A DNA stretch of 64,000 bases from Collinsella aerofaciens (GCF_963360655.1 NZ_OY725717.1:124001-188000), one strand, 5' to 3'. Numbered from the stretch's first letter, positions 39,882 to 64,000 are shown. A program made the numbers and translations. The notes: generated by a model not told the origin, from the sequence alone.

Positions 39882-41729
39882 TTATTCCAAAGGCGTATTT
39901 AAAACCCAGCCCCACTGAGGCGTAGCGGTAGTGTGGTAGTAGTTCAGCCACCAGGCCAGTGATGTCGTCCTGATGTAGCCGATGTTATCCATAACCATAC
40001 CGTTACCGACGTAAATAGCAATGTGTCCCCAGCGAGCCCCCGCATTTGTATGCGTATGAGTAGGGACCGCAACTATCATTCCAACCTTAAGCTGCGATAT
40101 ATCTCGACTGTGACACCAATTCCAAAACATGTCGCATGCGTCACCGTTGGGATAAGACCCTAGCACGGGATAAAAAACCTCGCTAACCCACTCCGAGCAC
40201 AACCCCACTCCAGGAGAAGGAACGTTGTAGCAGCGGCCAACAATTTGAGACTGAGAGGAAGTGTGGGCAGAACGTTCGGGCTCTACCCAAGCACCAGCTG
40301 CATTAAAGAAATACTCGCCATTATCGATACTGTTCCAGCCGGTTGCCATTTGACCTGACGACATAAGGTAATACCATAGCCTGTCAGCATCGCGGAACCA
40401 GCCTGTATTCATAACGCCAGATTCGTTGTCGAGGTGATACCACCTCTCGCCAATTAATTGCCAACCGTGCTGCAGCACCCCGTCTGAATCTGTGTAAAAC
40501 CACGTCTGAGCAGCGGAAGACCAATACCAGCCTACCATGGGCTTTCCTTCGGCGTCGTTGAGCTTAATCGCGCCCACGCTGTCCTTGACACCCGTTAACA
40601 CAATTGCTCCACTGCCGCACGCATAATATGCGCTTCCATCTTGCGAGAAGATCCAGGCGTTGCACTCTAATGCACCACCGCTATCGGGATCCAAATAATA
40701 AATAGAGCCATTCACAGTTTGAAAACCTAGGAGCATGGCACCATTATTGTTAGGATCAAGCCAATACCAGTTAGAGCCATAGTAAAACCATCCAGCGCGA
40801 ATCGCTCCAGTGGCATTGGCACAATACCATGTCCCATCGTCAACAAACCAACCAGTGCTCATGGATCCAGATTGAGAAAAATGATACAACGCACCGTTAA
40901 CAAGTTTAAAGCCCGTAGCCATTAATCCAGAAGGTTCAAGCCAATACCAAGTATTGTCAAGGAACAGCCAGCCAGTCTGCATAGCGCCCGAAAGGTCCAA
41001 ATAGTACCAGTTATGATTGACTAAAACCCAGCCGGTCTTCATTAAACCTGATGTTTCGTCAAGGTAGAACCAATGACTACCGCTGGCAGCCCATCCCTTC
41101 AAATGCGCACAGGACCCAGAGAATAAGTGCCATCCATCACTCAGATATCTCCAGCCAGTAGCTGCGTAGCCTTCGGAATCAAAATAATATTCCGCTCCCC
41201 CAATAGTCAGAAAACAGTTTGACGGCCAGCCACCGTCCTCATATCTCCACCACCATTTACCATTTTGGTAGGCCCAAGAACCAGGAAGAGCGATGCTATT
41301 ATCGGAGGAACGAACAATTCGAAATGACAACTGGGCTGAAATACCGGAGTAATCCCCTAGCCCATTCACACTTATAGCGGCACAGCCAGGGGCAACATTA
41401 TTTGAATACAAGACTTCGTAATTGATACCGTTTACTAGCACAGACCCATCGACGGCAAAAACAGAAACCTCAGGAGTAATCGCGGCGCCGGTATATTCAT
41501 ATGTCGAAAAATCAATAGACGCTTTTAAATTAACGGAATCCGAAGTCAAGCGGTCGCCGCCCAGTGTCCCAAATGCCTCCAGGCCCGCTTGAACCAAAGA
41601 TCCATCAGCGCCTTCAACTGCATAATCATAAGATAATGAAAATGCGGTCGTAGGCCATATAAGAGGGGTGAAACAAATTGATACAAGACAAATCGCGCTG
41701 AATAAACTCAAATGCCGATTTCTCATCAT
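39882..41729 (-). CDS. Choline-binding-type repeat protein with CHAP/NlpC-like C-terminal domain
   Basis: The 615-residue protein has a signal peptide (about 1-30). An Ig-like surface domain follows (about 70-160: YTGAAITPEVSV, GINYEVLYSNN, GDYSG). More than ten GW-type repeats (about 165-490, pattern GWxxxxxxWYYLxxxGxMxTGW) come next. The C-terminal domain of about 110 residues has a Cys in GLCSEWVSEVF and a His in RWGHIAIYVGNG, as expected for a CHAP or NlpC-like amidase/peptidase. It would bind the cell surface through the repeats and cut peptidoglycan. The ATG has AGGAAG upstream. Confidence 0.85.
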   Translation of the reverse strand: MMRNRHLSLFSAICLVSICFTPLIWPTTAFSLSYDYAVEGADGSLVQAGLEAFGTLGGDRLTSDSVNLKASIDFSTYEYTGAAITPEVSVFAVDGSVLVNGINYEVLYSNNVAPGCAAISVNGLGDYSGISAQLSFRIVRSSDNSIALPGSWAYQNGKWWWRYEDGGWPSNCFLTIGGAEYYFDSEGYAATGWRYLSDGWHLFSGSCAHLKGWAASGSHWFYLDETSGLMKTGWVLVNHNWYYLDLSGAMQTGWLFLDNTWYWLEPSGLMATGFKLVNGALYHFSQSGSMSTGWFVDDGTWYCANATGAIRAGWFYYGSNWYWLDPNNNGAMLLGFQTVNGSIYYLDPDSGGALECNAWIFSQDGSAYYACGSGAIVLTGVKDSVGAIKLNDAEGKPMVGWYWSSAAQTWFYTDSDGVLQHGWQLIGERWYHLDNESGVMNTGWFRDADRLWYYLMSSGQMATGWNSIDNGEYFFNAAGAWVEPERSAHTSSQSQIVGRCYNVPSPGVGLCSEWVSEVFYPVLGSYPNGDACDMFWNWCHSRDISQLKVGMIVAVPTHTHTNAGARWGHIAIYVGNGMVMDNIGYIRTTSLAWWLNYYHTTATPQWGWVLNTPLE

Positions 41730-42996
41730 TTCACTCTTCCTATGTAATCAGATAAACCTTTGAATATCCAGGCACAATCGACCTAGAGCCACAGTTCCCA
41801 AAATAAACAGCATGCCCAAAAAATCGTTTAACATGTCGCATCAGATAAAACGACACATCACTCATCAGCATATGGATTGTATATCTATTAGGCAATTATG
41901 GAGCAGCAGACGAGAGTGATCAATGTTAGACAAACGACTTTTTAGTCAAAGATAAGTGTGAATTAATCGTCCTTCTTCCGATATCGACAGTCAGGCAACA
42001 AGCCATCACCAGCGATGGAATCACCATCACTAACAGTATTCCAAGTTGATTTCCCAGATTGGTAAAGGTAAACAGACGCTTCCAGAGCCAGCTTTGAGCA
42101 AGTGAATTGTCGGAAATCAGATATACGGCAAAAGCGGATCCCGCAAGCCAATTGACACGGGCAGAATTAAATTAATATTTCAGACACAATTTAAATACTG
42201 ATAGAAATACTGCAAACGAGAGACCCATTGAAAGAATGCTAGCTGATGAATAAACATACCCGTTAAATAGATTCACAGCAAAGTCGTGAATTATTCCTTG
42301 CGAATGATACGGAAGGTACAGCAAGAGAAGTCCTGATATAAAACATGCAGTCCCAACAAGCGCCAACTTATTCCAGCTAGTGGTATTAAAATTTACTGTT
42401 ATCGTAAATAACAGACACCAATTGCGAGAACGATGAGATCGATGAGCATTCCTTCGGCTGGAAACGAAACGAACGGCAAATATCGAAATAATCCAAATGC
42501 AAACGATAATGATAGTGAAAGGAATTTGTGCTCGCTTCTACTACAGGCTCGAAGCCCCTCCAATATATAGGGGAGCAGCAAAATAAGGCCGGCATCAGAA
42601 GTGTTAAACCACCATCCATACCCCGTGGCAATTGGAAAGACCGTATTGATAAAGAAAGAGGCCGAAAGGGGCAAACTGCCCGTAAAAATAGAAATAATCC
42701 CTAAAGTTATACTGTAAAAAACAACCTCATTATTAAGAATTATTAGCTTCTTGACCGCATCTTTAATGCTAAAAGAAGCTCTGTCGGCTATAAACCAAAC
42801 GGCGATAGACACGAAGCAGCCAACTGCAACTTTTCCAATAGGGAGAAACACTCCCTTAATGTTAGCGCCGGGCGATTTTAGCCGCTAATAGTCAAACTAT
42901 TTTGACCAATCCCGGTCACCGAATAATGGCCACCGTGCCTCCCCGCCGCCACTACGCTGGTGGTGCCAACACGCCGGCGTTAGGAGGACCATTGAG

Positions 42997-44304
42997 GTGA
43001 ACGAGAGACACGATGACCTACAGGAGATTATAGACGCGGCGCTCCGGGAGATGGCCGCGGAGGAGGGCGACGGGTTCGACCCGCAGGCATGCAACCTCGC
43101 GGAGTTCTGCAGGAGGACGGGGCTCACCCGCTCCCGCGCGAGGACGGTCAGGGCACACGGGTTCAGGGCCCTGCCCCACGGGAACAGCGGGAGGAGGGCC
43201 GCGCCGGGCGTGCTCGCCGGCCACACCGGCCTGGTGGACGACCTCCTGCGGAAGGGCGTCACCAACTCGCAGGTGATATTCGAGCGGCTGCTCGGCCAGG
43301 GCTACGCCGGCGGCCTCACCACGGTGAAGACCTATATCGCCGCGCACCGGGACCTCGTGCCCGCGAAGAGGCGGCAGGCGGCCCCGCAGGGCTGCCGCGG
43401 CCAGCGCTTCAGGACGGCGCCCGGAGAGGCCTACCAGATGGACTGGGGCTTCGTCGCGGTCGAGCGCCCTGGCGGGGAGCGGGCGCGGATCGCCTGCTTC
43501 GCCATGGTCTGCCACCATTGCGGGGGCGCCCACGTCGAGTTCTTCCCGAACGCACGCCAGGAGAACCTCCTCATCGGGATGCTGCACGCGTTCTCGGCGC
43601 TGGGCGTGCCCGCGACCGTGCTCACCGACAACATGAAGAGCGTGGTCGTCCGCCGCGATGCCGACGGCCGGCCCGTCTGGCAGGCCGACTACGCCGAGTT
43701 CATGGGCGTCGTCGGCTTCCGCACCAGGTTGTGCAGGCCGCGCCACCCCTATACGAAGGGCAAGGTGGAGAGGCTCGTCCGCTTCGTGAAGGGGAACTTC
43801 CTCGCGGGAAGGTCCTTTACCGACCTTGACGCCCTCAACCGGGAGGCCGCCCTCTGGTGCGCCGAGCAGGGAGGCCGCTGGCGGCGCGCGGCGGCATGCG
43901 TCCCGATGCGCGAGCACGAGGCGGCGTGCTCGGCGAACACCAGGCCGCTCGAGGTCACGGCCGAGGTCGAGCGGTACCTGTGCCCGCGCCGGAAGATCTC
44001 CTTCGACGGCTTCGTGAGCTTCGAGGGGCACCGCTACGGCGTGCCCTACTGGTACGTCCGCCGCGAGTGCAGGGTGAACCGGGAGGGGCGCGTGGTGCAC
44101 ATATACAGCGACGACCTCTCCCGCGAGCTCGTCGCCCACGCCGTCGGCACCGGCGCCGACAGCTGGTGCGAGGGGCAGTGGGAGACATCGCCGGCGCAGC
44201 CCGAGGAGCTGCCGACCCAGCCGGTGGGGACCGTGGTCGAGCAAATCGCCCCGCCCAGGACGAAACCCGGTTTCGAGAGGTTCGACTTCGGGAGGGCCGA
44301 ATGA
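42997..44304 (+). CDS. istA: IS21-family transposase IstA
   Basis: The 435-residue transposase starts at GTG with AGGAGG 9 bases upstream. It has an N-terminal helix-turn-helix part (about 20-110: FCRRTGLTRSRARTV) and an integrase core with the DDE residues in YQMDWGFV (Asp about 149), LTDNMKSVV (Asp about 210) and KGKVERLVRF (Glu about 256). The C-terminal beta region has GHRYGVPYWYV. Its stop overlaps the istB start (ATGA), giving the coupled expression typical of IS21. Confidence 0.96.
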   Translation: MNERHDDLQEIIDAALREMAAEEGDGFDPQACNLAEFCRRTGLTRSRARTVRAHGFRALPHGNSGRRAAPGVLAGHTGLVDDLLRKGVTNSQVIFERLLGQGYAGGLTTVKTYIAAHRDLVPAKRRQAAPQGCRGQRFRTAPGEAYQMDWGFVAVERPGGERARIACFAMVCHHCGGAHVEFFPNARQENLLIGMLHAFSALGVPATVLTDNMKSVVVRRDADGRPVWQADYAEFMGVVGFRTRLCRPRHPYTKGKVERLVRFVKGNFLAGRSFTDLDALNREAALWCAEQGGRWRRAAACVPMREHEAACSANTRPLEVTAEVERYLCPRRKISFDGFVSFEGHRYGVPYWYVRRECRVNREGRVVHIYSDDLSRELVAHAVGTGADSWCEGQWETSPAQPEELPTQPVGTVVEQIAPPRTKPGFERFDFGRAE

Positions 44305-45128
44305 TGGCGGGCGCGGGGGCGAGCCCCTACGAGCTCGCGAGCGACGCCGCGTCGAGGCTCGGGATCGCCGTCGGGGCGGAGGAGCTCGCGACCCTCGCCT
44401 CGGACCTCGACCTCGGCGACGGGGAGATGGCCGCCGTGGCAGCCACCTTCTCCTACCTTGCGGAGAAGAGGAGGCTCGCCTCCATCGAGACGCTGCTGAG
44501 GCTGAGCAGGCTGCCCAGGCGCGAGCCCAAGACCTTCGAGGGCTTCGACTTCTCCAGGATCCAGGGCCGGGACGCGGCCGCGCTGGGCAAGCTCCCGTCG
44601 CTGGCCGACCTCTACGCGCACCGCAACGTCGCCTTCGTCGGGCCCGGCGGCATAGGGAAGACGCACCTCGCGCAGGCCTACGGGCGCGAGTGCTGCATGC
44701 GGGGGCTCAAGACCTACTACATCAAGGCGGCCGAGCTCAGGGACAGGTTCCAGAAGGCCGTCCAGCGGGGAAACACCTCGCGGGTCGTCTCCTCGCTCGT
44801 CAAGCCGTCGTGCCTCATCGTGGACGAGGTGGGGAGATGCGTCTACGACAGGCCGTGCACCGACCTGTTCTTCGATGTCGTCGACAGGCGCTACGAGAAG
44901 GAGGGGCCGAACGCGATGGTCCTTACGAGTAACATCGCCCCGAGCGGGTGGGATGAGTTCTTCACGGGCGACGACACGCTCCTCTGCGCCCTCGACAGGC
45001 TGTTCGACAAGGCGTCGGTGTTCGTGATGCGGGGCCCGAGCTACCGCGGCAGGGGGCTCGACACCTACTCGGTGGAGGCCGTCCCCCAGGCGGTGAAGGT
45101 GAGGGGGATCCAGCCCGAGGGGATGTAG
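44301..45128 (+). CDS. istB: IS21-family ATPase IstB
   Basis: IstB is the AAA+ helper that assembles target DNA for IstA. The 275-residue product has an N-terminal helical part, the Walker A motif GPGGIGKTH (about 118), the Walker B stretch CLIVDEVG (about 173), sensor residues in MVLTSNIAPSGW, and ALDRLFDKASVF. ATG 44301 overlaps the istA stop; the next codon is also ATG. Confidence 0.95.
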   Translation: MMAGAGASPYELASDAASRLGIAVGAEELATLASDLDLGDGEMAAVAATFSYLAEKRRLASIETLLRLSRLPRREPKTFEGFDFSRIQGRDAAALGKLPSLADLYAHRNVAFVGPGGIGKTHLAQAYGRECCMRGLKTYYIKAAELRDRFQKAVQRGNTSRVVSSLVKPSCLIVDEVGRCVYDRPCTDLFFDVVDRRYEKEGPNAMVLTSNIAPSGWDEFFTGDDTLLCALDRLFDKASVFVMRGPSYRGRGLDTYSVEAVPQAVKVRGIQPEGM

Positions 45129-45723: not shown

Positions 45724-46077
45724 TCATTCATGATTAGACCATTTCTCAAGTTCCTTTTCGAGTAGGGCAATCCTATGAGTAAGGTTTTTAATCGCCAAAA
45801 CATGACGACTCACGGCAACGCTAAGAGACAGAGAGATTGCAAGCAACAGCACGATTGCACCCAAAAAAAGGAAATTGGCTGGGTTGACAAACCCAATAGC
45901 TGTTGAGCAACTATAAATAATTTGAGGACATATATCACAAATCAAGGCCGCCATACACATCAAAATCCACAACAGAGAGTACTTAAGAAGCATCTTTCCG
46001 TTGGACACGAGCCGCAAAACATAGACGAGAAAGCCGCCGAAAAAGAGGGCCGCACCAATCCTCAAAATTAGATTCAT
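45724..46077 (-). CDS. DUF2304 membrane protein
   Basis: The 117-residue product has three hydrophobic segments (about 5-22, 32-50 and 65-88) and a C-terminal coiled coil (IALLEKELEKW), matching the DUF2304 pattern. Its start overlaps the stop of the glycosyltransferase gene by one base. Such proteins often accompany DPM1-like GT2 enzymes in polysaccharide loci and may form a membrane subunit with them; that role is inferred. Confidence 0.8.
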   Translation of the reverse strand: MNLILRIGAALFFGGFLVYVLRLVSNGKMLLKYSLLWILMCMAALICDICPQIIYSCSTAIGFVNPANFLFLGAIVLLLAISLSLSVAVSRHVLAIKNLTHRIALLEKELEKWSNHE

Positions 46078-46823
46078 TATTTATCTCCCCTATGAACCCA
46101 GCACACAAGAACAATGGCTAACGTGACCTTGATCATGTAGTAGACGGAAGAGAAGCCCCCGATGGACGAACGTCCGCCTTGGCGTTCATTCATCTTTACA
46201 GGCGCCTCCATAACGGGAAGACCAAGCTTCATAGCCAAAGCAATCGACTCTGGCTCCGGGTAGTCATCAGGATAACTCTTGCAGAACAGGTCGATAGCAT
46301 CTTTATTGCATGCCCTAAAACCAGAAGTGGGATCGGTGACCACCTTACCCGTAAGCAGCTCGAGCAAAAATGAAAGCCACCTGATTCCAACGCGACGCAT
46401 AAAAGTTGACTGAAAACCATCAGTCTCAACCAGAAATCGAGAGCCTATCGCCAGGCTCGCCCCACCCTCAATCAGCTTTACAAGCTCAGGAACATAAGAA
46501 GGATCATGCTGGCCATCGCCGTCAACCTGAATGTCAATATCATAGCCAAATCTCTGAGCATACTTATGGCCCGCTTGGACCGCTCCACCGATACCAAGGT
46601 TCTGTGGCAGGTCCAATATGTTGACACCATGCTCTCGACAAAGCTCAAGCGTTCCATCTTGTGACCCGTCGTTGATTACAACATAGTCATATCCCGCAGC
46701 TTTTATAGACGCAACGGTATCGAGAATGCACTCCTGTTCGTTATAGGCAGGGATTATTACGAGAACACGCGGATATCCTTTTGAACATGTTGTTGCAGCA
46801 AGAGACAATCGAGATTCATCCAT
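46077..46823 (-). CDS. GT2 glycosyltransferase, DPM1-like
   Basis: The 248-residue protein has VLVIIPAYNEQECILDTV, VVINDGSQDGT, the metal-binding VDGDGQHDPSYVPEL (about 100) and GSRFLVETDGFQSTFMRR. The cytoplasmic catalytic domain is followed by one hydrophobic stretch (about 225-243). It probably transfers a sugar to a polyprenyl phosphate. It is coupled to the DUF2304 gene and lies in the minus-strand polysaccharide run. Confidence 0.88.
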   Translation of the reverse strand: MDESRLSLAATTCSKGYPRVLVIIPAYNEQECILDTVASIKAAGYDYVVINDGSQDGTLELCREHGVNILDLPQNLGIGGAVQAGHKYAQRFGYDIDIQVDGDGQHDPSYVPELVKLIEGGASLAIGSRFLVETDGFQSTFMRRVGIRWLSFLLELLTGKVVTDPTSGFRACNKDAIDLFCKSYPDDYPEPESIALAMKLGLPVMEAPVKMNERQGGRSSIGGFSSVYYMIKVTLAIVLVCWVHRGDK

Positions 46824-47132: not shown

Positions 47133-49124
47133 TTAGAAAAATCGGATATACAAAAGCTCGAAAAACACAAAATACAGCAGCCCAAATGGAATCCCGAGCA
47201 TAAAGGCTGTACATTTAGTCTTCTCTTCCTCGTCGCAGTAAATAGGAAACCTGAGCAAAAGACAGGCGAAAGGTATTAACAAAGGTATGAGGTATCGCGC
47301 CTGAACACCCGCAACTGTCTGGCTTCCAACTCCTGTAAAGGCGATGTATAGAGCCAAAGCAACTAAATAGCAAGTAGCAAGAACCAGGAATAGAGTCCAA
47401 ACAATCCCGAAACGGCTAAACTTAAATTTAGTAACTTTTTCATTATCAATAATGCATATAGCCTCAAACAACACGATGGGAAGATATGAAAGCCATGGGA
47501 ACAGATTGGACACGTCCCCAAGATAAGCCATATTCGTTGATATTGAATTGAGAAACGCCGGGGTCAGCATCGATCCAAAAACGAAATTCGAGATTACAAC
47601 TATAGTTCCAACTGGATTTGCAAGCACTCCCGTCGTTTGACCAGCCGTAGAGACTTCGGAGCCACCACGTGCATCAGAAATGTTATTTACGACAGAAGAG
47701 AAATATGGCGTCAAGAAAGATAAAATCATTATGGCGCAAACGAATAGTGCAGCTCCAATCAAGATACGTCTTTGCTTGCTCGAAGTATATTTATCTGCAG
47801 GAATTAAAAGCGCAAGTCCGAATAAGGGAAAATAAATCGCTTTAGCTGCAAATCCGATTGCAAAAGATAATAGAAATCCGAAGAATGTTTTTGCAGAAAT
47901 ATCCTCTTCAGAAACAAGCATCTTCAACAAAAGAGCTGTTCCTAGCAAACTGAACGATATCACACAGGGATCATACGAGTAACTGGCTGCCATTAACACG
48001 GCAGACGGGAACAACGCAATACAAGTGAAAAGACATTTTCTGCAAGGGGCTATACGAATTGCGATTCCGCAGATAACTGCATACGCAAGTAAATTAAATA
48101 ATTTTCCCAATGCAAATTTGATAGAAAATGGGAGATGAAGCAAGCGACCCAAACAAAGGCCGATAGAAGAAGGAATATAGGCAATTTTAGAAAGAGCCAC
48201 ACTATCAAAACAATTAACACGTTCGATACCTTCAGCTATATTATTTTTATCGGCCTCTCTGACTAATTGCTCAACAGAGCCACGGTTAAACTCTCTTGTT
48301 TCATCTATTGGGTACTTACCCAAAGATGCATCCAAACTAAAGCCGTCCCCCCTATAAAACTGTTCGACTATCATTCGGTCAGAATTTGTTATTTCAGCAT
48401 TTGTGAGGTAGGAAACACTATTTGCATTTCCATAGTGGACCTCATCATCCCATGTCAGAAAATTTGTAACGGGGAAGCAAATAATTACGGATAGACCGAC
48501 CGAGACAATGCATGCGAAAGCGAACAGTTCGGGCTTCAGATAAGAAGTGCCCCCATTAATAGCAATCAACCCGATCAAAACAGTAATGGGCAAAGCAGAC
48601 GCGAACAACACCGTCTTTGACTTATCGAGCGGAATGCCAATAAAAGCGATTAAAACAGCAAAACCAACAGAAACCGTCAAAAAAAAGAAACACTTCTTAG
48701 TATCAGTTTTCTTAACCGAGGCTACAAAGCTCTTCACCAGGCCATAGCAAAGCTCAATGCCTTGAAACGCTAAAACTAAATGAAAGCATATAACAAGACT
48801 TGCGATATTCCATGCGTCAAGATCGAAGGGGCCAAACGTCTTCGCACCAGTCAATATGATTAAAACTAGCAGAAAGCTGCAGAGAATGCTGGACGCGACG
48901 AGGACGGTTATCTGACGAATAGCGTCACCACCCGACTGTGATTTCGGTTGCAAATATAAGCACGCAACAGCAACGACATCGCAAAAGAGTTCAAGAATGA
49001 ATAGATTTAAATTCTTATAGTGCAATGATGTCGCAACAGCTAATAAAAGAAGTCCCAGCCCAAAGATGGCAAGCGCGTACTCGCTTTTCTTAATTGCAGG
49101 ATTATTCAAAACGTGCATCTCCAA
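47133..49124 (-). CDS. DUF2142 polytopic membrane protein
   Basis: The 663-residue protein has about twelve to fourteen membrane segments and the DUF2142 features FLTWDDEVHY in the first large outer loop and ASYSYDPCVISFSLLGTALL. The family resembles GT-C glycosyltransferases that use polyprenyl-linked sugars, so it may add side residues to the exported glycan; this is inference. The start is uncertain: TTG 49124 or ATG 49118, neither with a well-spaced ribosome site. Confidence 0.8.
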   Translation of the reverse strand: MEMHVLNNPAIKKSEYALAIFGLGLLLLAVATSLHYKNLNLFILELFCDVVAVACLYLQPKSQSGGDAIRQITVLVASSILCSFLLVLIILTGAKTFGPFDLDAWNIASLVICFHLVLAFQGIELCYGLVKSFVASVKKTDTKKCFFFLTVSVGFAVLIAFIGIPLDKSKTVLFASALPITVLIGLIAINGGTSYLKPELFAFACIVSVGLSVIICFPVTNFLTWDDEVHYGNANSVSYLTNAEITNSDRMIVEQFYRGDGFSLDASLGKYPIDETREFNRGSVEQLVREADKNNIAEGIERVNCFDSVALSKIAYIPSSIGLCLGRLLHLPFSIKFALGKLFNLLAYAVICGIAIRIAPCRKCLFTCIALFPSAVLMAASYSYDPCVISFSLLGTALLLKMLVSEEDISAKTFFGFLLSFAIGFAAKAIYFPLFGLALLIPADKYTSSKQRRILIGAALFVCAIMILSFLTPYFSSVVNNISDARGGSEVSTAGQTTGVLANPVGTIVVISNFVFGSMLTPAFLNSISTNMAYLGDVSNLFPWLSYLPIVLFEAICIIDNEKVTKFKFSRFGIVWTLFLVLATCYLVALALYIAFTGVGSQTVAGVQARYLIPLLIPFACLLLRFPIYCDEEEKTKCTAFMLGIPFGLLYFVFFELLYIRFF

Positions 49125-50367: not shown

Positions 50368-50400
50368 CACATAACCTCATCTGATATAGATGTCATATCC

Positions 50401-51261: not shown

Positions 51262-51265
51262 CGGC

Positions 51266-52554: not shown

Positions 52555-53490
52555 CTATCTCGCAGCTTTAAGTTCTTTTAAAATCAAAATAAACAGCCAA
52601 TTCGGCATAAGACGTATAATGATATCTGCTTTAGCGATAGACGGGCAAGCTCGTCGGTATTTAAGTAAACCAATTATGGAGCGCCGCTCCCTTGCTTCAG
52701 CGAACCCCAATATTTCCTTTAGATGCGGTGAATCGGGAAATCTATCGGCAAATCGCCTAGCAGTATCAACCCTGTTTTTAACTCTTGTCGAATACCAATC
52801 ATCTTTTGAAGAAACACCTGCAAGGAATCCAGTTTCGTTACCACCATGTCGACGATACTTAACCAAAGGAGTCATAGTAAAGCTGCACTTCCCCAGTTCA
52901 CTGCAACCCAATGTCAACCACAAGTCATGTGCAGTCGATTCCGGAAAGGGAATCATCGACTTCGCCGCACTCGCATCTAACATGAGAGCCATACCAATGC
53001 CGTAACATACGCTTGCGGCCTGTACAGTAATATCCTCTCCAGAGCACCAATTTACTTCCGGCGAATTAGGATGAGCTTTCCTATAACTCTTTACCAGAAT
53101 ATTTCCGTTTTCGTCAATTACCGATCTATCACAAACATCTAGAATTGAGCCTTCTTCTAGCATATGGTTGAGCGAAACTTCAACTCTATTAGGCTCCCAA
53201 ATATCATCCTGATCGCAAAGTACTACGTAATCCCCTTCCGCCAAGGAGAGCAGCGCCTCGAACGATTTGACATAACCGAGATTATTATCACCGTGATAAT
53301 ACCGATAGGCGTTTTTCGTTATATGCGCTTGGATAAACCGCTCTAATGAATCCGATTCAGGGCAGTCATTTCTAACTAGAAGCGTAAGCGGAAACGTTTG
53401 TTTATCTATCGAATCAAGTTGTTCCGCGAAAAACTTAAGATCGGGTTTATAAGCTGAGAGAAGTACGCATACGTCAATATCATTTCCCAT
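52555..53490 (-). CDS. GT2 glycosyltransferase, rhamnosyltransferase-like
   Basis: The product (about 311 residues) has VCVLLSAYKPDLKFFAEQL, GYVKSFEALLSLAEGDYVVLCDQDDIWEPNRV with the DQDD metal site (about 90), and a C-terminal region YRRHGGNETG as in WbbL/RfbF-like enzymes. The start is uncertain: ATG 53490 matches the family N-terminus, while an earlier ATG adds ten residues and a GGGAGG site lies between them. It is the first gene of the minus-strand run that includes wzx and licD. Confidence 0.85.
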   Translation of the reverse strand: MGNDIDVCVLLSAYKPDLKFFAEQLDSIDKQTFPLTLLVRNDCPESDSLERFIQAHITKNAYRYYHGDNNLGYVKSFEALLSLAEGDYVVLCDQDDIWEPNRVEVSLNHMLEEGSILDVCDRSVIDENGNILVKSYRKAHPNSPEVNWCSGEDITVQAASVCYGIGMALMLDASAAKSMIPFPESTAHDLWLTLGCSELGKCSFTMTPLVKYRRHGGNETGFLAGVSSKDDWYSTRVKNRVDTARRFADRFPDSPHLKEILGFAEARERRSIIGLLKYRRACPSIAKADIIIRLMPNWLFILILKELKAAR

Positions 53491-53610
53491 TTCTATTTCC
53501 AAAAATCCTCCCAAATTCATTGCTTAAAGATTATCAAAGCACCCTCAGTTAAAAGAAACTCTTTTAAAAATAGAGTATTTATCCCTGTCTCTTAAAACGA
53601 GTGCCTAATA

Positions 53611-55719: not shown

Positions 55720-57894
55720 CTATTTAATAAACGGACGAGCTGCGCCGATTACATTTCCCCTTGCGCTAATAGGATGAATTCCGACACCTTGATGAGGCCA
55801 GGAATCAATCATCAAGCCGCCGCCAAGTGCAATTGCAATATGACCGCGGTAATAAATCACATCGCCGCGTTGAATCGAGCTCGTGCTCACGGGCATAAAG
55901 ATATTGCTTCGATACCAATTCATGGAATTGTAGGTTTGGCTTGGATCCCAGCGATGGTTATAAGGGTTGTAAACACCCATATCCATGCCAGTAGCATAAA
56001 GGCACTGCAAGACAAAACCAGAGCAATCAACAGCTCCACCGGGAGCGGTAGACCAAGGCTCAATATATTGCGTACCGATATACTCATAGGCGCGCTGGAT
56101 AAAGGCGTTCACGCAATCTTCCCGCGTTGCTTCGACAGAAATGCGAGAAGGGGTCACATAGGTAAAGTATCCGGTGCAATAGCTAGGCAGCTGAACAGTC
56201 CAAGAACTGACCTGAGGATACTGGGATGGATTTTGCCAGCCAACTTTGTCGCACTGGCCATCGCTCCAGAAAATTCGGCGAACACCGTCGATGGTCCTTG
56301 CGCCCGTTGCCATAGCGCCGCTGCCGTCTAACCAATACCACTTACCCGAATCTTTAAGCCAGCCAACATGCATGCTTCCATTGGACTCAAGGTAATACCA
56401 TGTTCCATTCAGGCTTTTCCAACCAGTTGCCATTTTTCCGTCAGCGTTTAGGTAATACCATGCACCGCCAGTAAAAACCCATCCGGTCTTCATCACGCCA
56501 GAATCGGCATCAAGCCAATACCAATCGCCGTCAATCTTCAGCCATCCACGATGAATGGCACCCGTCCCGGGCTCAGCGTAAAACCTTAAATTTGCGACAT
56601 TAACCCAGCCGGAAGCAACCTGCCAACCATCAGCTCCAGCGATTTTTAGGATAGTGCCGTTTTCGCGAATCACATCCTTGCAAAGATATCCATTATCATC
56701 GGCGTATCTTTGAACGCCGTCATTAACGGTAACCCAACTTGAAACCACAAGCCTACCGCTCTGGTTTGCAAAACAATCGTTGCCGCCCACCTCAAATAAG
56801 CCCGTTTTCATGAGATGGCTAACAGGGTCCAGGTAATACCAGCTTGTGCCTTCTTTATACCAGCCAGAAATAAGTGCACCAGATTGGGAGGCGAAATACC
56901 AGCCGTCCTCGACCTGAGCCCAACCAACAGCCATAGCCCCGTTAGGCTTTAAATAATAAGCTGCATTGCCAAGGTCTAAATACCCAACGGACATCTTACC
57001 ATCGGAGGCTGGGTCGAGATAATACCAAGCGCCGTTAACGAGTTTCCAGTCAGTGGCCGCAATACCGTTAGAGCAGTAATACCAATCTACTCCGTCTTTG
57101 TACCATCCATTTGCGAGACCATAGTCACCAAAAATGTAGGTTCTTCCATCAATCTTTTGACGACCCTTAAACATGATGAACGTCTGTGAGTCAAAATAAT
57201 AGCGAGCCCCACCTATCGTTTGCCATGACGAAGCAAGGGCACCCGATGAATAAGCCCAGTACCAATTCCCGTCAACGAGAATCCAGCCGGTTTTCATAGC
57301 ACCAGTGGCATCTAAATAGTATTTCCCGCTCCCGAGGTCGACAAAACCAACCTGCATTATATTGGTGGCAGGATCCAGGTAATACCATGTGCCGTCTTGA
57401 TAAAACCAACCGGCAGCTAAATCGCCTCCAGCATTGGCATAAAACCAATTTCCATCTGAGTTACGTAGCCAGCAGTTCTGATATAGCGCGCCAAAAGGCG
57501 TTGCGGCATTGCCGTCATTCGCATAAAACGAAGCAATCGATCCGCCAGCATCGGTCACATTGAAATAACCTGTCTGCATTGCACCATCATTGGCTGGATC
57601 AAGCCAATACCAATAGCCCCCGCTTTGCAGCCAGCCAGTTTGGTGTTTACCGTTTTTTCCGTAATACCAAACTCCAGACGACTCGTCTCGTTGCCAGCCA
57701 TCTTTTATGGCGGAAGAATTATCAGGTTGCAAATCATCGGAAACCACAGAAGAAAAATCCGCTTTTGACTCAATACTCTGAGCCTCAACGGAATCCTGTG
57801 CAAACGCGACATTCGCACTCAGGGGCAAGCAGCAAGCAGTGATTAATGACGCAGCAGCACAAACAAGCGTGGCCTTCTTTTCGAATCGATACAT
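55720..57894 (-). CDS. Choline-binding-type repeat protein with NlpC/P60 domain
   Basis: The 724-residue protein has a signal peptide (about 1-35: KKATLVCAAASLITACCLPLS), then about 20 GW-type repeats (about 65-545), then an NlpC/P60 domain (about 595-724) with the catalytic Cys in AVDCSGFVLQCLY and His in RGHIAIALGGG. It should cut peptide stems in peptidoglycan. ATG 57894 has GGGAGG 7 bases upstream; the longer frame adds 8 residues. It is transcribed away from the lic operon, sharing a 165-base intergenic region with an operator-like palindrome. Confidence 0.9.
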   Translation of the reverse strand: MYRFEKKATLVCAAASLITACCLPLSANVAFAQDSVEAQSIESKADFSSVVSDDLQPDNSSAIKDGWQRDESSGVWYYGKNGKHQTGWLQSGGYWYWLDPANDGAMQTGYFNVTDAGGSIASFYANDGNAATPFGALYQNCWLRNSDGNWFYANAGGDLAAGWFYQDGTWYYLDPATNIMQVGFVDLGSGKYYLDATGAMKTGWILVDGNWYWAYSSGALASSWQTIGGARYYFDSQTFIMFKGRQKIDGRTYIFGDYGLANGWYKDGVDWYYCSNGIAATDWKLVNGAWYYLDPASDGKMSVGYLDLGNAAYYLKPNGAMAVGWAQVEDGWYFASQSGALISGWYKEGTSWYYLDPVSHLMKTGLFEVGGNDCFANQSGRLVVSSWVTVNDGVQRYADDNGYLCKDVIRENGTILKIAGADGWQVASGWVNVANLRFYAEPGTGAIHRGWLKIDGDWYWLDADSGVMKTGWVFTGGAWYYLNADGKMATGWKSLNGTWYYLESNGSMHVGWLKDSGKWYWLDGSGAMATGARTIDGVRRIFWSDGQCDKVGWQNPSQYPQVSSWTVQLPSYCTGYFTYVTPSRISVEATREDCVNAFIQRAYEYIGTQYIEPWSTAPGGAVDCSGFVLQCLYATGMDMGVYNPYNHRWDPSQTYNSMNWYRSNIFMPVSTSSIQRGDVIYYRGHIAIALGGGLMIDSWPHQGVGIHPISARGNVIGAARPFIK

Positions 57895-57992
57895 AAGCGA
57901 CCCTCCCAGATATCTCATTTATTTATTTTAATCCACATTCCAGGATTGATTTTCGTTACTGTCTGTTCAGTCTATGTAGATAAATATATTTA

Positions 57993-58022
57993 ATTGAACA
58001 TAACGTTCAATCATTCTATTCT
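57993..58022 (+). promoter_or_regulatory. Promoter of the lic operon with overlapping operator palindrome
   Basis: TTGAAC (57994-57999) and TATTCT (58017-58022) are spaced by 17 bases. The palindrome ATTGAAC-ATAAC-GTTCAAT (57993-58011) covers the -35 and most of the spacer. A protein bound there would block the promoter. The winged-helix domain at the start of the first lic gene is an obvious candidate for the binder. Confidence 0.6.
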
Positions 58023-58059
58023 TTCCATAAGCAATGAACATCTTAATTGGAGGCCTGCA

Positions 58060-59832
58060 GTGGAACTGACCAAGCGTAACTTTACTGTTCTGTACGAATA
58101 CCTAAAGAACCCATATGCTAGCCAGCGAGAAGTTGCCGAGCGCACTGGCCTCTCACTTGGATCGGTAAACGCAGCAAATAAAGAGCTTACGAATGAGGGC
58201 CTTCTCGAATCGGACAGCCTAACCGACAGCGGTTACGAAGCACTTCACCCCTATAAGGTTGAAAACGCAGTGATATTGGCTGCGGGGCTTTCGAGCCGCT
58301 TTGCTCCCATTTCGTATGAAAAGCCCAAAGGCCTTTTAAAGGTACGTGGTGAGATTCTCATCGAACGTCAGATTAGGCAGCTGCAAGACGCGGGTATCAG
58401 CAATATCACCGTCGTTGTCGGCTATAAAAAAGAGTATTTCTTCTATCTTGAAAGCAAGTTCGGCGTCTCGATTGTCGTCAACAACGAATATGCATCCAAA
58501 AATAACCACGCATCGCTTATGTGCGTAAAAGAGCGGCTTGGCAACACCTATATTTGCTCAAGCGATGATTACCTTCTAAACAATCCGTTTGAAGCATACG
58601 TTTGGAAAGCATTTTATTCTGCTCAATATGCTGAAGGCGCCACCAAAGAATGGTGCATTCAAACCGGAGCAATGGACCGAATCACCAATGTTACGATTGG
58701 CGGTTCCGATGCTTGGTATATGCTCGGACATGTCTACTTTGATAAAGCCTTCTCGCTTGCATTTAAGCAGATTCTCGAAACGGAATATAACAAGCCCGAA
58801 ACAACGGACAAGCTTTGGGAAGATCTATATATCGAGCACATCAAGGAGCTCGATATGGTTATCAAGAAGTATCCTAAGGGCGAGATCAACGAATTCGATT
58901 CTCTTGATGAACTGCGTGCCTTTGATCCGCATTTTATCGAAAACGTTGACTCCGATATTTTCGATAACATCGAGCAAGTGCTCGGCTGCTCCAAATCAGA
59001 GATTCACGACGTTTATCCCCTTAAACAAGGTCTTACGAATCTATCGTGCCACTTTAGAACCAATGACGGAGAGTACGTTTACCGCCATCCGGGAGTCGGG
59101 ACCGAACTGCTTATTAACAGAAATGGAGAAGTAGCCGCACTTAAAAAGGCCAAGGAACTCGGCCTTGACGACACGTTCATTCATGAGGACCCAAAGCGCG
59201 GTTGGAAAATTTCGAAGTTTGTACCCAACGCAAAGCAGCCTGATCCGCATGATGCTGCCCAAATGAATCGAATGATGCAGATGTGTCATTCGCTTCACGA
59301 GAGTGGTGCAAATGTCGAAACCGAATTTGACTTCTACCTCGAAGCGAAGCGCTACGAATCGCTTCTTCTGGAAAAAGGTCCCATCGACATTCCAGGCTAC
59401 AGGGAAATGTCCGCCGAAATCGATGAATTGGAGCGCTTTGTACAGGCCGACAATGCACCAAAATGCCTTTGCCACAATGACTTCTTTTACCTCAATTTCC
59501 TTATCGATGAGAACGACAAGTACTATCTCATTGACTGGGAATATGCTGGCATGAGCGATTACGCAAACGATTTTGGAACGTGCAGTGTCTGCTGCGAGCT
59601 TTCCGAAGATGAAGTCGACCGCGCGCTTGATGCATATTTTGGGCGCAAGGCAACAAACAACGAAGTTGCGCATAACTACGCGCACATTGCCCTTGCAGGA
59701 TGGTGCTGGTACCTCTGGTCTCTTCTGAAAGAAGCCGAAGGCGACTTCGTAGGCGAATGGCTCTATATCTACTTCAATTACAGTGCCAAATACCTTAAAA
59801 AGGCACTGGAGATCTATCGGAAAGGTGAGTAA
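58060..59832 (+). CDS. Winged-helix / LicC cytidylyltransferase / LicA choline kinase fusion
   Basis: The 590-residue protein joins three parts. Residues 1-65 form a MarR-like winged helix (TKRNFTVLYEYLKN, REVAERTGLSLGSVNAANKEL). Residues 68-290 form a nucleotidyltransferase like LicC (AVILAAGLSSRFAPISYEKPKGLLKV, SSDDYLL), which makes CDP-choline. Residues 315-590 form a choline-kinase-like domain (LicA: KQGLTNLSCHF, LCHNDFFYLNFLID with the catalytic Asp, LIDWEYAGMSD). The start is GTG with GGAGG 6 bases upstream. It activates choline in the cytoplasm for LicD and may also sense and regulate. Confidence 0.88.
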   Translation: MELTKRNFTVLYEYLKNPYASQREVAERTGLSLGSVNAANKELTNEGLLESDSLTDSGYEALHPYKVENAVILAAGLSSRFAPISYEKPKGLLKVRGEILIERQIRQLQDAGISNITVVVGYKKEYFFYLESKFGVSIVVNNEYASKNNHASLMCVKERLGNTYICSSDDYLLNNPFEAYVWKAFYSAQYAEGATKEWCIQTGAMDRITNVTIGGSDAWYMLGHVYFDKAFSLAFKQILETEYNKPETTDKLWEDLYIEHIKELDMVIKKYPKGEINEFDSLDELRAFDPHFIENVDSDIFDNIEQVLGCSKSEIHDVYPLKQGLTNLSCHFRTNDGEYVYRHPGVGTELLINRNGEVAALKKAKELGLDDTFIHEDPKRGWKISKFVPNAKQPDPHDAAQMNRMMQMCHSLHESGANVETEFDFYLEAKRYESLLLEKGPIDIPGYREMSAEIDELERFVQADNAPKCLCHNDFFYLNFLIDENDKYYLIDWEYAGMSDYANDFGTCSVCCELSEDEVDRALDAYFGRKATNNEVAHNYAHIALAGWCWYLWSLLKEAEGDFVGEWLYIYFNYSAKYLKKALEIYRKGE

Positions 59833-59834: not shown

Positions 59835-60776
59835 ATGCAATTCGGCTTTTTTAGCGGCCTTCTTTGGGGCCTTGATACAGTAATTCTTGGAATCGGTTTG
59901 GCGCTCGCGCCCTATATAGGATCGGCGGAAGCGCTTGCATGCGCCTCCATTGCAGGATCTTTTCTCCATGATGCCTTCTGTGCAATCTGGCTCTTTGGGT
60001 ACATGGGAGTTCGAGGCAGATTAAAAGATACGCTCGCTGCACTTAAAACTCGTTCGGGCAAGGTCGTCATCGCCGGCGCTCTGCTCGGTGGACCTATCGG
60101 AATGACCGGTTACGTATTGGCGATTAATAACATCGGAGCTGCCTACACGGCAATCATCTCCGCCTTCTATCCCGCGGTCGGAGCATTCCTTTCGTTCGTG
60201 CTGCTGAAGGAGAAAATGGGCAAAGGTCAGATGCTTTCCCTTCTCGTTGCTCTTTGCGGCGTAATGACGATGGGCTATCTATCGGCCGGATCGAGCGAGA
60301 TTGCAAATGCCCCCCTCGGCTTACTCGGCGCGGTGCTTGCCGTTATTGGATGGGGATCCGAAGCGGTGCTGTGCGCATGGGGAATGAAAGATGATGCCGT
60401 TGATGACGAAACGGCTTTGCAAATCCGCGAAACTACGAGTGCGCTTGTTTATGGAGTGCTCGTACTCCCCCTCTTCGGAGCATGGCATTTCACGCTGGGT
60501 GCTATCCCGAGCATGCCCACATTGATTATTGCACTCGCCGGACTCGCAGGAACTGCATCCTATCTGTTCTATTACAAGGGCATTGCGGCAATCGGAGCAG
60601 CGCGTGCGATGGCTCTGAATATATCCTATTCGGCATGGTCGGTGGTCTTTGGCCTGATCTTGCTTGGAACAATTCCCGACATGGCATCTGTAATCTGCTG
60701 CATTGTAATTGTATGCGGAACAGTTTTGGCAGCCAGTAACTGGGACGAACTATTTGGACGAAATAAGACAGCGTAG
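59835..60776 (+). CDS. licB: LicB-like choline transporter (DMT superfamily)
   Basis: The 313-residue protein has ten membrane helices in two EamA-type halves (QFGFFSGLLWGLDTVILGIGLAL; IIALAGLAGTASYLFYYKGIAAIGAARAMALN). This is the pattern of LicB, the choline permease of phosphocholine-decorating bacteria. It starts 2 bases after the fusion kinase gene stop, so the two are coupled. Import of choline is inferred from homology and from the kinase next to it. Confidence 0.85.
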   Translation: MQFGFFSGLLWGLDTVILGIGLALAPYIGSAEALACASIAGSFLHDAFCAIWLFGYMGVRGRLKDTLAALKTRSGKVVIAGALLGGPIGMTGYVLAINNIGAAYTAIISAFYPAVGAFLSFVLLKEKMGKGQMLSLLVALCGVMTMGYLSAGSSEIANAPLGLLGAVLAVIGWGSEAVLCAWGMKDDAVDDETALQIRETTSALVYGVLVLPLFGAWHFTLGAIPSMPTLIIALAGLAGTASYLFYYKGIAAIGAARAMALNISYSAWSVVFGLILLGTIPDMASVICCIVIVCGTVLAASNWDELFGRNKTA

Positions 60777-60794
60777 CTTGATTAACAATGCAGT

Positions 60795-60827
60795 AAAAAG
60801 GGAGAGCTCGTCGAGCTCTCCCTTTTT
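60795..60827. terminator. Bidirectional terminator after licB
   Basis: A perfect 16-base inverted repeat (60795-60810 with 60812-60827) has AAAAA and TTTTT ends, so it stops both licB (+) and the C39-type gene (-). Confidence 0.9.
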
Positions 60828-60837
60828 AGCATTATGG

Positions 60838-62979
60838 CTATTCAATTACCACGGCCTGGCTATCCATCTGTTGCCACGTGCCGAAGAACACCTGGGCATT
60901 TCGCGTAACATTGCCGTTAATCGAATCCGAAAGATAGACAATTCCCCGCTCGTCATCATAGCCTTTAAGGACTACGGCATGATTACCGCCCCACAGACCA
61001 TAGGAATACCCGTTATACCAACGAGCAGCATAACGGCCTCCTGGCCAACTTCCCCACTCGGTATTCCACATCTCAACAGGTTGACCAAAGGTCAGCCTGT
61101 TCTTAATGGAAGAAATTGACGAGAAAGAGACGTCTTTTGCCTGCTTGCCACTTCCAGCAGCACGCAGAAAGTTATTACCAGCAATCGTAATAGCAGGGGC
61201 GACACATCCCATGAGACCCCCGCTACTACGCCTTGGGTTGCCATCAAAGGCGGTAACAAAGTTGCCGTTGCTTCCCTTGGGCAAGTAATAATCCGCAATA
61301 ATCGTCTTACCTAAACCGAAACCATAGTAGTTAAGCAAGTTTGTAAGGGCGACCGACTCACAGCCAGTAGGAAGTTCCGGGTACTGCGAATAGCACGGGA
61401 CATCGACCCAAGCGCCAACCATTGCGCCGGATGAACTGAACTTGTAGTCAGTAGAGCCGATCCAATACCAACCGTTGCTCAACATTACTCCCCCACGTGC
61501 GGCATCAAGGTAATACCATGTGCCCCCAAGGGATAGCCATCCCGTTTTCATTGCGCCAGAAGAGGAATCTAGCCAGAACCAGTTACCGCCATCGATAAGC
61601 CAGCCGGTCGCCATTCGACCATCCGAGTTAAAGTAATACCAAGACCCAGCTATTTGCTGCCATCCAGTCAGAATTACCCCATTAGCAGAACAATAATATC
61701 GAGAACCCTGACTCTCAATCCAGCCCGTTCTAACATTCCCGCCATCGTCAATCAGCTGGATTCCCGAATCAGTCATGATGCCTTTAAGGTCAATTGCACC
61801 GCTGGATGAAGAATGATACATCCAGGACCCATCACCGTTTGACCAGCAATTAGCCATCATCTTGCCGGAACTATTAAATATGTATTCACATGATCCAATA
61901 GTTTGGACACCCGTAGCCATGACGTACGTCGAGGGATCGAGCCAGTACCACGCACCGTTTAGGTTGAGCCAGCCGGAGGCGAGGGCGCCGGAGCCAATCG
62001 CGTAGTACCAGGTCCCGCCATCGAGGACCCATCCGGTCGCCATCGCGCCGGAGGCGTTGAACCAGTACGCGGAGCCGTTGCACGAATGGAGGCCCGTCGC
62101 CATGGCGCCGCCCGCGTCGGGGTCGAGCCAGTACCAGGAGCCGCCAGTGTAAAGCCAGCCGGTCGAGGCGATACCGTCAGCGAACCAGTACCAGGAGCCG
62201 TCGACGAGGCCCCAGCCGTTAAGGGGACCGCAGCTGCCGAAGTAGCGGCGGACGCCCTGCGCATCAGTCTGGTAACCCGTCAGCATGGCTCCCGTCCGGG
62301 CGTCGAAGCAGTAGGGCACGCCGCCGACGGAAACGGGGCCGCGCGCCAGCGCGCCGGAGCCAGTCGCGTAGTACCAGGTGCCGCCGTCGAGCACCCAACC
62401 GGTCGCCATCGCGCCGGAGGAGTTGAACCAGTACATGGAGCCGTTGCACTCGTGAAGGCCGGTAGCCATGGCATGGGTGGAGGGATCAAGCCAGTACCAG
62501 GCGCTGCCGACGTAGGCCCAACCGGAGGCGAGGGCGCCGGAGCCCGTCGCGTAGTACCAGGTACCGCCGTCGAGGACCCACCCGGTCGCCATCGCGCCGG
62601 AGCCATTGAACCAGTACGCGGAGCCATTGCACTCATGGAGCCCGATGGCCATGGCATGCGTCGAGGGGTCGAGCCAATACCAGGCCCCATTGGTATAGAG
62701 CCAGCCAGAATGCAACGAGACCGGATTGACTGAATCCACATAGAACCAGTTGCCGTCAAACGAATTCCAACCCAGATTCCATTTAACGGATTCTTGAGCA
62801 GGACCATCATCGATTGAATCGGAAGGAGAAAGAGTCGAGGGGACGGATTGCCGCTCAAAATCAGTAGGGATGGAGGAGCTTATGGGTTCTGCGTTCGCGA
62901 TATCAACCACACCGGGTCCAGCGAGCAGTAGAGTTGAAAGAATGATTAGGATTAATGTTATTTGCTTTTTCCTTGCCAT
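60838..62979 (-). CDS. Choline-binding-type repeat protein with C39-like peptidase domain
   Basis: The 713-residue protein has a signal peptide (about 1-30), about twenty GW-type repeats (about 70-525), and a C-terminal C39-like cysteine peptidase domain (about 530-713) with the Cys in LPTGCESVALTNLL, a His in GGNHAVVLKGYDD, and YLSDSINGN. The coding sequence is visibly GC-rich from about 61917 to 62690 and AT-richer on both sides, so the gene is mosaic. A 554-bp part is nearly identical to the next gene in the same frame. Confidence 0.87.
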   Translation of the reverse strand: MARKKQITLILIILSTLLLAGPGVVDIANAEPISSSIPTDFERQSVPSTLSPSDSIDDGPAQESVKWNLGWNSFDGNWFYVDSVNPVSLHSGWLYTNGAWYWLDPSTHAMAIGLHECNGSAYWFNGSGAMATGWVLDGGTWYYATGSGALASGWAYVGSAWYWLDPSTHAMATGLHECNGSMYWFNSSGAMATGWVLDGGTWYYATGSGALARGPVSVGGVPYCFDARTGAMLTGYQTDAQGVRRYFGSCGPLNGWGLVDGSWYWFADGIASTGWLYTGGSWYWLDPDAGGAMATGLHSCNGSAYWFNASGAMATGWVLDGGTWYYAIGSGALASGWLNLNGAWYWLDPSTYVMATGVQTIGSCEYIFNSSGKMMANCWSNGDGSWMYHSSSSGAIDLKGIMTDSGIQLIDDGGNVRTGWIESQGSRYYCSANGVILTGWQQIAGSWYYFNSDGRMATGWLIDGGNWFWLDSSSGAMKTGWLSLGGTWYYLDAARGGVMLSNGWYWIGSTDYKFSSSGAMVGAWVDVPCYSQYPELPTGCESVALTNLLNYYGFGLGKTIIADYYLPKGSNGNFVTAFDGNPRRSSGGLMGCVAPAITIAGNNFLRAAGSGKQAKDVSFSSISSIKNRLTFGQPVEMWNTEWGSWPGGRYAARWYNGYSYGLWGGNHAVVLKGYDDERGIVYLSDSINGNVTRNAQVFFGTWQQMDSQAVVIE
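61920..62473 (-). repeat. 554-bp direct repeat, copy 1 (in the C39-type gene)
   Basis: This block aligns base for base, without gaps at the points checked, with 63334-63887 (offset 1414) and with few substitutions. The offset keeps both in the same coding frame. It encodes the same order of GW-type repeats, including the distinctive segment with GVPYCFDARTGAMLTGYQ and FGSCGPLNGWG. Confidence 0.85.
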
Positions 62980-63079
62980 GTGCAGCCCCCAGTAGTTACC
63001 AATTTTTATATAAACATAGTCTACAAATGGATAGCTAAGAGCAATATGTAATTAGAAAAAAGCAATTAAGGAAGAGTTG

Positions 63080-64000
63080 CTAGCCGAGCCAAGCGCCATT
63101 ACTAGCAAAAGAGTATTTCACCCCATCGATTTCTTGAACACCCGTAGTCATAGCGTGCGTCGAGGGGTCAAGCCAGTACCAGGCGCCGCCGACGTAGGCC
63201 CAGCCGGAGGTGAGGGCGCCGGAGCTCGTCGCGTAGTACCATGTGCCGCCGTCGAGGACCCATCCGGTCGCCATCGAGCCGGAGCCGTTGAACCAGTACA
63301 TGGAGCCGTTGCACCCATGGAGCCCGGTGGCCATGGCGTGCGTCGAGGGGTCGAGCCAGTACCACGTACCGCTTAGGTTGAGCCAGCCGGAGGCGAGGGC
63401 GCCGGAGCCAGTCGCGTAGTACCAGGTCCCGCCGTCGAGCACCCATCCGGTCGCCATCGCGCCGGAGGCGCTGAACCAGTACGCTGAGTCGTTGCACGCG
63501 TGGAGGCCCGTCGCCATGGCGCCGCCCGCGTCGGGCTCGAGCCAGTACCAGGAACCGCCGGTGTAAAGCCAGCCGGTCGAGGCGATACCGTCAGCGAACC
63601 AGTACCAGGAGCCGTCGACGAAGCCCCAGCCGTTAAGGGGGCCGCAGCTGCCGAAGTAGCGGCGGACGCCCTGCGCGTCCGTCTGGTAGCCCGTCAGCAT
63701 GGCCCCCGTCCGGGCGTCGAAGCAGTAGGGCACGCCGCCGACGGATACGGGGCCGCGCGCCAGCGCGCCGGAGCCAGTCGCGTAGTACCAGGTCCCGCCG
63801 TCGAGGACCCACCCGGTCGCCATCGCGCCGGACGAATTAAACCAGTACAGGGAGCCGTTGCACTCGTGAAGGCCGGTAGCCATGGCACCGCCCACGTCGG
63901 GCTCGAGCCAGTACCACGTGCCACTCTGAAACAACCATCCGGTATACGCCTTGCCGTCAGAGGTTGCGTAATACCAAGTGCCCTCTTTTAACTGCCAGTA
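63080..64000 (-). CDS. Choline-binding-type repeat protein, C-terminal part (N-terminus beyond window)
   Basis: The frame is open from the window end (YWQLKEGTWYYATSDGKAY) to a stop at 63080. All 306 visible residues are GW-type repeats, and the protein ends in a repeat (DGVKYSFASNGAWLG) with no catalytic domain at the C-terminus, unlike its four neighbours. Any enzyme domain would have to be N-terminal and outside the window. The gene is GC-rich except at its very ends. It may be a repeat donor to the C39-type gene or its recipient. Confidence 0.85.
   Translation of the reverse strand, partial: YWQLKEGTWYYATSDGKAYTGWLFQSGTWYWLEPDVGGAMATGLHECNGSLYWFNSSGAMATGWVLDGGTWYYATGSGALARGPVSVGGVPYCFDARTGAMLTGYQTDAQGVRRYFGSCGPLNGWGFVDGSWYWFADGIASTGWLYTGGSWYWLEPDAGGAMATGLHACNDSAYWFSASGAMATGWVLDGGTWYYATGSGALASGWLNLSGTWYWLDPSTHAMATGLHGCNGSMYWFNGSGSMATGWVLDGGTWYYATSSGALTSGWAYVGGAWYWLDPSTHAMTTGVQEIDGVKYSFASNGAWLG
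63334..63887 (-). repeat. 554-bp direct repeat, copy 2 (in the partial repeat protein)
   Basis: This is the partner of 61920-62473, with the same orientation and frame. Differences are scattered and mostly at third codon positions (for example at the segments around 63540 and 63690). Confidence 0.85.

Follow-up and report, generated by a model that had tools for sequence, protein, structure and literature searches.

The locus and its lic genes

The window analysed here is a stretch of 64,000 nucleotides from Collinsella aerofaciens (GCF_963360655.1, NZ_OY725717.1:124001-188000, or C6:124001-188000 in the coordinates used below for genes beyond it), taken from a genome of 2.3 Mb that is 99.9% complete; other positions are counted from its first letter. 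From 39.9 kb to about 6 kb past the window end lies a locus encoding a fused LicC-LicA protein (LicCA), LicB, LicD, glycan-assembly proteins and seven secreted proteins built on choline-type repeats. We consider it likely that this locus specifies a phosphocholine-decorated glycan not made by TagF, together with choline-anchored wall enzymes matched to the lic genes, and that it behaves as a self-regulating cassette. Its LicCA is 98–99% identical to records from C. aerofaciens and Collinsella sp. 4_8_47FAA, which places the bacterium in the C. aerofaciens group.

LicCA (58060–59832, plus strand) was assigned from Pfam families (HTH_24, NTP transferase, Choline_kinase), PDB sequence searches, a fold search and an alignment of homologues. 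Its open frame runs from a TTG at 57994 to 59832, and the GTG at 58060, which matches the homologue starts in the alignment, is the likelier start. Numbered from 57994, the protein consists of a winged helix (approximately residues 27–87), a LicC cytidylyltransferase (90–312) and a LicA choline kinase (320–612). The LicC part matches pneumococcal LicC (1jyk) with an E value of 8e-39, the next family following at 1e-8, and the LicA part matches choline kinase 3dxq (E 3e-25) and pneumococcal LicA 4r77 (E 5e-25). LicC and LicA are also the top Foldseek matches of the predicted structure, and the choline kinase and cytidylyltransferase motifs are invariant among the aligned homologues. The adjoining gene on the same strand (59835–60776) encodes a LicB-type putative choline importer of the EamA/DMT family, whose sole credible solved relative is pneumococcal LicB (7b0k/7paf, E 1.3e-33). 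The LicD-family phosphotransferase (50401–51369, minus strand) matches PF04991 over its full length (E 8e-45) and, in a genome-wide family search, is present as a single copy. The components of a Lic-1 pathway, namely a LicA kinase, a LicC cytidylyltransferase, a LicB importer in the same operon and a LicD-family transferase, are all recognisable by sequence. The initial annotation had placed homologues of all four Lic functions in the window, and all its parts lie at or near where it had put them; its LicD gene (50401–51261) is present with a longer extent.

Choline-repeat proteins

Five of the seven repeat proteins are encoded in the window, all on the minus strand. Protein 1 (39882–41729; PF19127/PF01473, six cage motifs) has an enzyme end that is CHAP/NlpC-like by eye and has only weak solved relatives (E 0.008). 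Pfam domains identify an L,D-transpeptidase (YkuD) in protein 2 (53611–55680, six motifs), an NlpC/P60 peptidase in protein 3 (55720–57918, six motifs) and a peptidase C39-like domain in protein 4 (60838–62979, seven motifs). Protein 5 (four motifs) starts with a GH25 muramidase domain, and the window holds its C-terminal part only (63080–64000 of a gene that extends to 64813; L034:1080-2813). Beyond the window end lie protein 6 (C6:190726-192957), NlpC-like below the Pfam cut-off, and protein 7 (C6:193017-194273), in which no enzyme domain was found. The count of five secreted repeat proteins given by the initial annotation thus holds for the window, the last two of the full set being outside it. 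The N-termini of the choline-repeat proteins are signal-like, as judged by eye. Every PF01473 match in the genome falls within C6:164.9-193.8 kb, so the choline repeats of this genome are confined to the locus.

A WYY-type motif with a GW after it, at the spacing of the repeats, recurs four to seven times in each of the seven proteins. The pneumococcal consensus is TGW..DNGSWYYLN.SG..M, and its first two aromatic residues, as a rule tryptophans, engage choline by cation-pi contacts (PMC4929436). The repeats exceed the curated Pfam choline-binding cut-offs (PF01473/PF19127), and they do not reach the glucan-binding repeat model TIGR04035 (best 104 bits versus a cut-off of 147.7). The possibility that they are glucan-binding repeats was rejected on these profile cut-offs and on the presence of the cage tryptophans, the very residues whose absence, coupled with matches to glucan profiles only, the initial annotation had named as evidence against itself. 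A partial model of protein 3 forms a regular hairpin solenoid whose best fold matches are Pce, CbpJ and CbpF, ahead of toxin- and glucansucrase-type repeats, and the choline module of a prophage LytA superposes on it at 1.9 A. Since the repeat fold is common to choline, toxin and glucansucrase families, fold alone does not decide the ligand; profile, residues and modelled fold taken together point to choline as the predicted one.

Co-occurrence of lic genes and cage repeats

A single set of 197 genomes of the order was searched for LicCA, PF19127, LicD and the DNA pattern WY[YWF]-x9-GW, genomes with at least three such patterns being scored as cage-positive and those with a match of at least 55% identity as LicCA-positive. 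Cage repeats were found in 34 of the 50 genomes with LicCA and in 2 of the 147 without it (p 1.5e-23), which bears out the co-occurrence of lic genes and repeat proteins that the initial annotation had proposed to check. The same holds within the genus itself (8/10 with LicCA, 0/33 without), and at the level of genera 17 have both, five LicCA only and one the repeats only. When LicCA was shuffled within genera, the observed overlap was not reached in 20000 trials (permutation p at most 5e-5). Of the 50 LicCA genomes, 48 also have LicD.

Plain PF19127 counts are more weakly associated with LicCA (p 3e-14) and show lic-negative exceptions. Reading of the proteins revealed that these lic-negative relatives carry different repeats that lack the full cage, for which reason the tryptophan pattern was adopted. 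Relatives that keep the repeats without ever having lic genes, which would have told against the earlier proposal, are thus largely absent, the lic-negative genomes carrying other repeats, with one clear exception (G195). Two cage-positive genomes fall outside the LicCA set, one with a LicCA match of 36% (G066) and one with no LicCA listed (G195).

The latter genome, from genus g32, has ten cage-repeat patterns and no LicCA match, which may be due to lic genes that are not fused, to a gap in the assembly or to a genuine departure from the rule.

Exchange of binding modules on wall enzymes

Relatives were sought with two query domains, NlpC from protein 3 and YkuD from protein 2, and the rest of each relative's open frame was classified by the attached module. 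Choline repeats accompany 11 of the 15 NlpC relatives in genomes with LicCA and none of the 32 in genomes without it; for the YkuD relatives the figures are 23/26 and 1/34, and for both pooled 34/41 and 1/66, one genome scored as choline by the regular expression (G101) having atypical repeats. In lic-negative relatives the Pfam-confirmed modules in this position include ChW, RicinB_lectin_2, GBS_Bsp-like and DUF5648 (L136-L137 from G013, L148, L168, L175 and L167). ChW repeats were counted by a simple regular expression that misses some true ChW proteins (the YkuD protein of G003, scored as "other", reads as ChW), an undercount that leaves the comparison between choline and non-choline modules unaffected. 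In the lic-negative genome G013 the locus has the same RmlA-B-CD flank and encodes YkuD, NlpC, C39-like and GH25 proteins in which ChW repeats (PF07538) replace the choline repeats. What is retained is the catalytic domain, what varies with the lic genes is the binding domain, and we regard this as the most telling argument that the ligand is choline on the surface of the cell itself.

A complementary pattern is seen in the near relative G041, where LicCA (98% identical), LicB (99%) and choline proteins 1 and 3–7 (84–96%) are shared with the locus described here, protein 2 has no orthologue, LicD (27%), the flippase (23%) and the DUF2142 protein (25%) are distant, and the glycosyltransferases are exchanged. 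Such a pattern would be expected if LicD follows the acceptor sugar while the binders read choline alone.

Two other explanations have to be weighed against these data. According to the first, the CDP-choline made by LicCA would feed phosphatidylcholine or another lipid, and the repeat proteins would bind glucan, or choline lipids from the host or the diet. It draws on the glucan-binding members of the PF01473/PF19127 families (PMC4929436), on the variety of acceptors used by LicD families and on the best NCBIfam match of LicD, a diacylglycerol cholinephosphotransferase, which is however far below the cut-off. Lipid synthesis does not explain why cage repeats occur on enzyme domains almost only where LicCA is present, LicD sits among glycan genes, and the glucan model and the cage tryptophans speak against glucan as the ligand, so that we regard this explanation as improbable. 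The second, that the lic genes and the repeat proteins share no function and are carried along together only as adjacent parts of a variable glycan island, appears to us very unlikely. The locus is indeed rich in insertion sequences and variable between species, and LicCA often occurs without repeats, but the link is seen in many genera, also where the enzyme genes and LicCA are not adjacent, it is supported by the within-genus permutation, and it is the binding module, not the enzyme, that tracks LicCA.

A putative operator upstream of LicCA

The initial annotation recognised the LicC-LicA fusion, which is borne out, and missed both its DNA-binding domain and a conserved repeat upstream of it. 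The N-terminal winged helix (Pfam HTH_24) is modelled with a pLDDT of about 90 and is present in the aligned homologues. Among all 6-mers in the 250-base regions preceding 77 LicCA genes (L050-L127), TGAACA/TGTTCA was the most enriched, found at 64 loci versus 9 expected. As the inverted repeat TGTTCA-N24-26-TGAACA, with at most one mismatch, it occurs at 56 of the 77 loci versus 1.1 in random windows of the same loci, which span Coriobacteriia, Bifidobacterium and Actinomyces and are related by descent, so that the counts are not independent. Exact half-sites are 30–32 bases apart in 34 of 41 pairs, and the inner GTTC and GAAC are invariant among sites picked with one mismatch allowed anywhere. 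Few other genes have the repeat upstream (28 of 1583 open frames), among them several that are divergent from LicCA.

In the window an exact copy (TGTTCA-N25-TGAACA, 57964–58000), the proposed LicCA operator, is followed by a second copy with one mismatch (58004–58040), both between LicCA and protein 3. Together, the winged helix and the conserved repeat suggest that LicCA probably regulates itself.

The proposed choline-bearing polymer and neighbouring features

LicD is overlapped by a hydrophobic gene (51266–52510, minus strand) that has no Pfam match and is MATE/Wzx-like by appearance; a distant relative (23%) also adjoins LicD in G041, and from its sequence and position it is a probable polysaccharide flippase. 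Around these two genes, on the same strand, lie a family 2 glycosyltransferase (52555–53520, PF00535), a family 4 glycosyltransferase (49222–50370, PF00534), a DUF2142 membrane protein that may be a glycan-assembly enzyme (47133–49124, PF09913) and a further family 2 glycosyltransferase, of the polyprenyl-phosphate type by appearance (46077–46823, PF00535).

The TagF family of CDP-glycerol/ribitol phosphotransferases (PF04464) gave zero matches genome-wide, other teichoic-acid families (TarI, TarJ etc.) not having been searched at that scale. Its absence argues against a TagF-made teichoic acid; pneumococcal teichoic acid relies on other genes. The earlier statement that teichoic-acid genes are lacking is upheld for TagF and within that scope. 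One LCP-family gene is located outside the locus.

Rhamnose is a possible component of the choline-bearing polymer. An ABC-2 exporter pair (29310–30997) and genes for RmlA, RmlB and an RmlC-D fusion (together 29310–37042) lie 3–30 kb away, and in several loci of Actinomyces, Bifidobacterium and Atopobiaceae LicCA also has Rml genes nearby. These genes might produce the polymer as a rhamnose polysaccharide, which would be compatible with the explanation favoured here and which we hold to be possible but rather doubtful. The RmlA-B-CD flank is also found at the locus in lic-negative relatives (G013 and G023), so the ABC-2 and Rml genes are not specific to the choline system, a second RmlC-D fusion 94% identical to the window copy is located at G000:C1:22816-24258, and a flippase-like gene next to LicD belongs to the lic cluster itself. 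For the first two reasons the rhamnose link drawn by the initial annotation is demoted, as it is not specifically supported.

A perfect inverted repeat of 17 bases (60794–60828) between the convergent LicB and protein 4 genes is probably a two-way terminator. Insertion sequences, typed by eye, comprise an IS21-like pair (42997–45128), of which the G013 locus has two copies at 99.5% identity, an IS30-like gene (L034:3120-4472) and a second IS21-like pair (L034:10340-12687). Apparent remnants of acyltransferase-like and glycosyltransferase genes (42399–42851; L034:9432-10208 and L034:8587-8973) suggest that the locus has been rearranged repeatedly.

Proposed mechanism and its weight

We propose that LicB imports choline, which would be phosphorylated by the LicA domain of the fusion protein and then activated to CDP-choline by its LicC domain, and that LicD would transfer phosphocholine onto a glycan built by the neighbouring glycosyltransferases. 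Once exported, this glycan would form a surface polysaccharide distinct from TagF-type teichoic acid, on which the seven secreted proteins may dock via their tryptophan-cage repeats, most of them bringing wall-enzyme domains (L,D-transpeptidase, NlpC-type, C39-like, GH25). From species to species, a change of surface tag would go along with a change of binding module on the wall enzymes, and the sugar backbone could change without a change of binders, because it is choline that these read. Binding of the LicCA winged helix to the TGTTCA/TGAACA repeats that lie between its own gene and that of protein 3 is probable and would tune expression to choline status. The idea of a phosphocholine glycan served by dedicated wall enzymes, already put forward in the initial annotation, gains strong support from the co-variation, the switching of modules with lic presence and the comparison with G041.

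Several points weigh against this reading. Sixteen of the 50 LicCA genomes lack cage repeats, among them C. stercoris (G027), which has ChW enzymes, so the pairing is not obligatory and lic genes do not require the repeats, while G195 has cage repeats with no LicCA listed. Both the 55% threshold and the cage pattern were set with the data already in view, and related genomes are not independent. The substrate of LicD is not proven by its sequence.

A broader proposal, to which we give an even chance, is that coriobacterial glycan loci in general are tag-and-grip cassettes, in which species swap the surface tag jointly with the module by which a conserved set of wall enzymes binds, phosphocholine with choline repeats and other tags with ChW, ricin-B-like or GBS_Bsp-like modules. 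The same proposal holds that, in the choline version, LicCA doubles as a transcription factor responsive to choline status, acting on the promoter of the cassette via the TGTTCA-N24-26-TGAACA operator.

Significance and comparison with known systems

The decoration of a surface polymer with phosphocholine and the anchoring of wall enzymes on choline, if confirmed here, would be extended to a common human gut actinobacterium. The exchange of modules in step with the lic genes amounts to a natural experiment on the matching of wall enzymes to the cell's own polymer, the alternative modules hint at further surface tags, and the fusion of an enzyme with a candidate regulator, with a defined repeat ahead of its gene, lends itself to direct testing. 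The presence of phosphocholine on the surface would also bear on the recognition of gut bacteria by host antibodies and C-reactive protein. The literature searched contained nothing relevant on choline-binding proteins of Collinsella or Coriobacteria, on licCA or on a helix-turn-helix/choline kinase fusion, and a survey of Lic-1 genes (PMC10434233) makes no mention of Collinsella or Coriobacteria. As far as this search goes, the coriobacterial system, the tag-linked exchange of modules and the joining of a candidate regulator to LicCA, together with the repeat upstream, are new.

The closest known parallel is Streptococcus pneumoniae, where phosphocholine on teichoic acid is combined with choline-anchored enzymes (PMC10434233). 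Both systems have the LicA, LicB, LicC and LicD functions, tryptophan-cage repeats and wall enzymes on choline modules (LytA, LytC, Pce, CbpF and CbpJ in the pneumococcus). The system described here differs in belonging to an actinobacterium, in the fusion of LicC and LicA behind a winged helix, in the location of all binders beside the lic genes, in the absence of TagF, in a single variable LicD and in a different set of enzymes. Erysipelothrix rhusiopathiae and pneumococcal types 15 and 32F figure in PMC10434233 as bearers of phosphocholine capsules and by this listing also carry phosphocholine on a non-teichoic polysaccharide, and Erysipelothrix has choline-binding surface proteins as well; these organisms are Firmicutes. 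Lic-1 genes are known in Actinomyces (PMC10434233), likewise an actinobacterium, and the LicCA fusion is found in Actinomyces and Schaalia at 55–59% identity, but their loci mostly lack nearby cage-repeat proteins. The ChW-repeat enzymes (PF07538) of lic-negative Collinsella relatives share the YkuD, NlpC, C39-like and GH25 domains and the same locus, and differ in the binding module.

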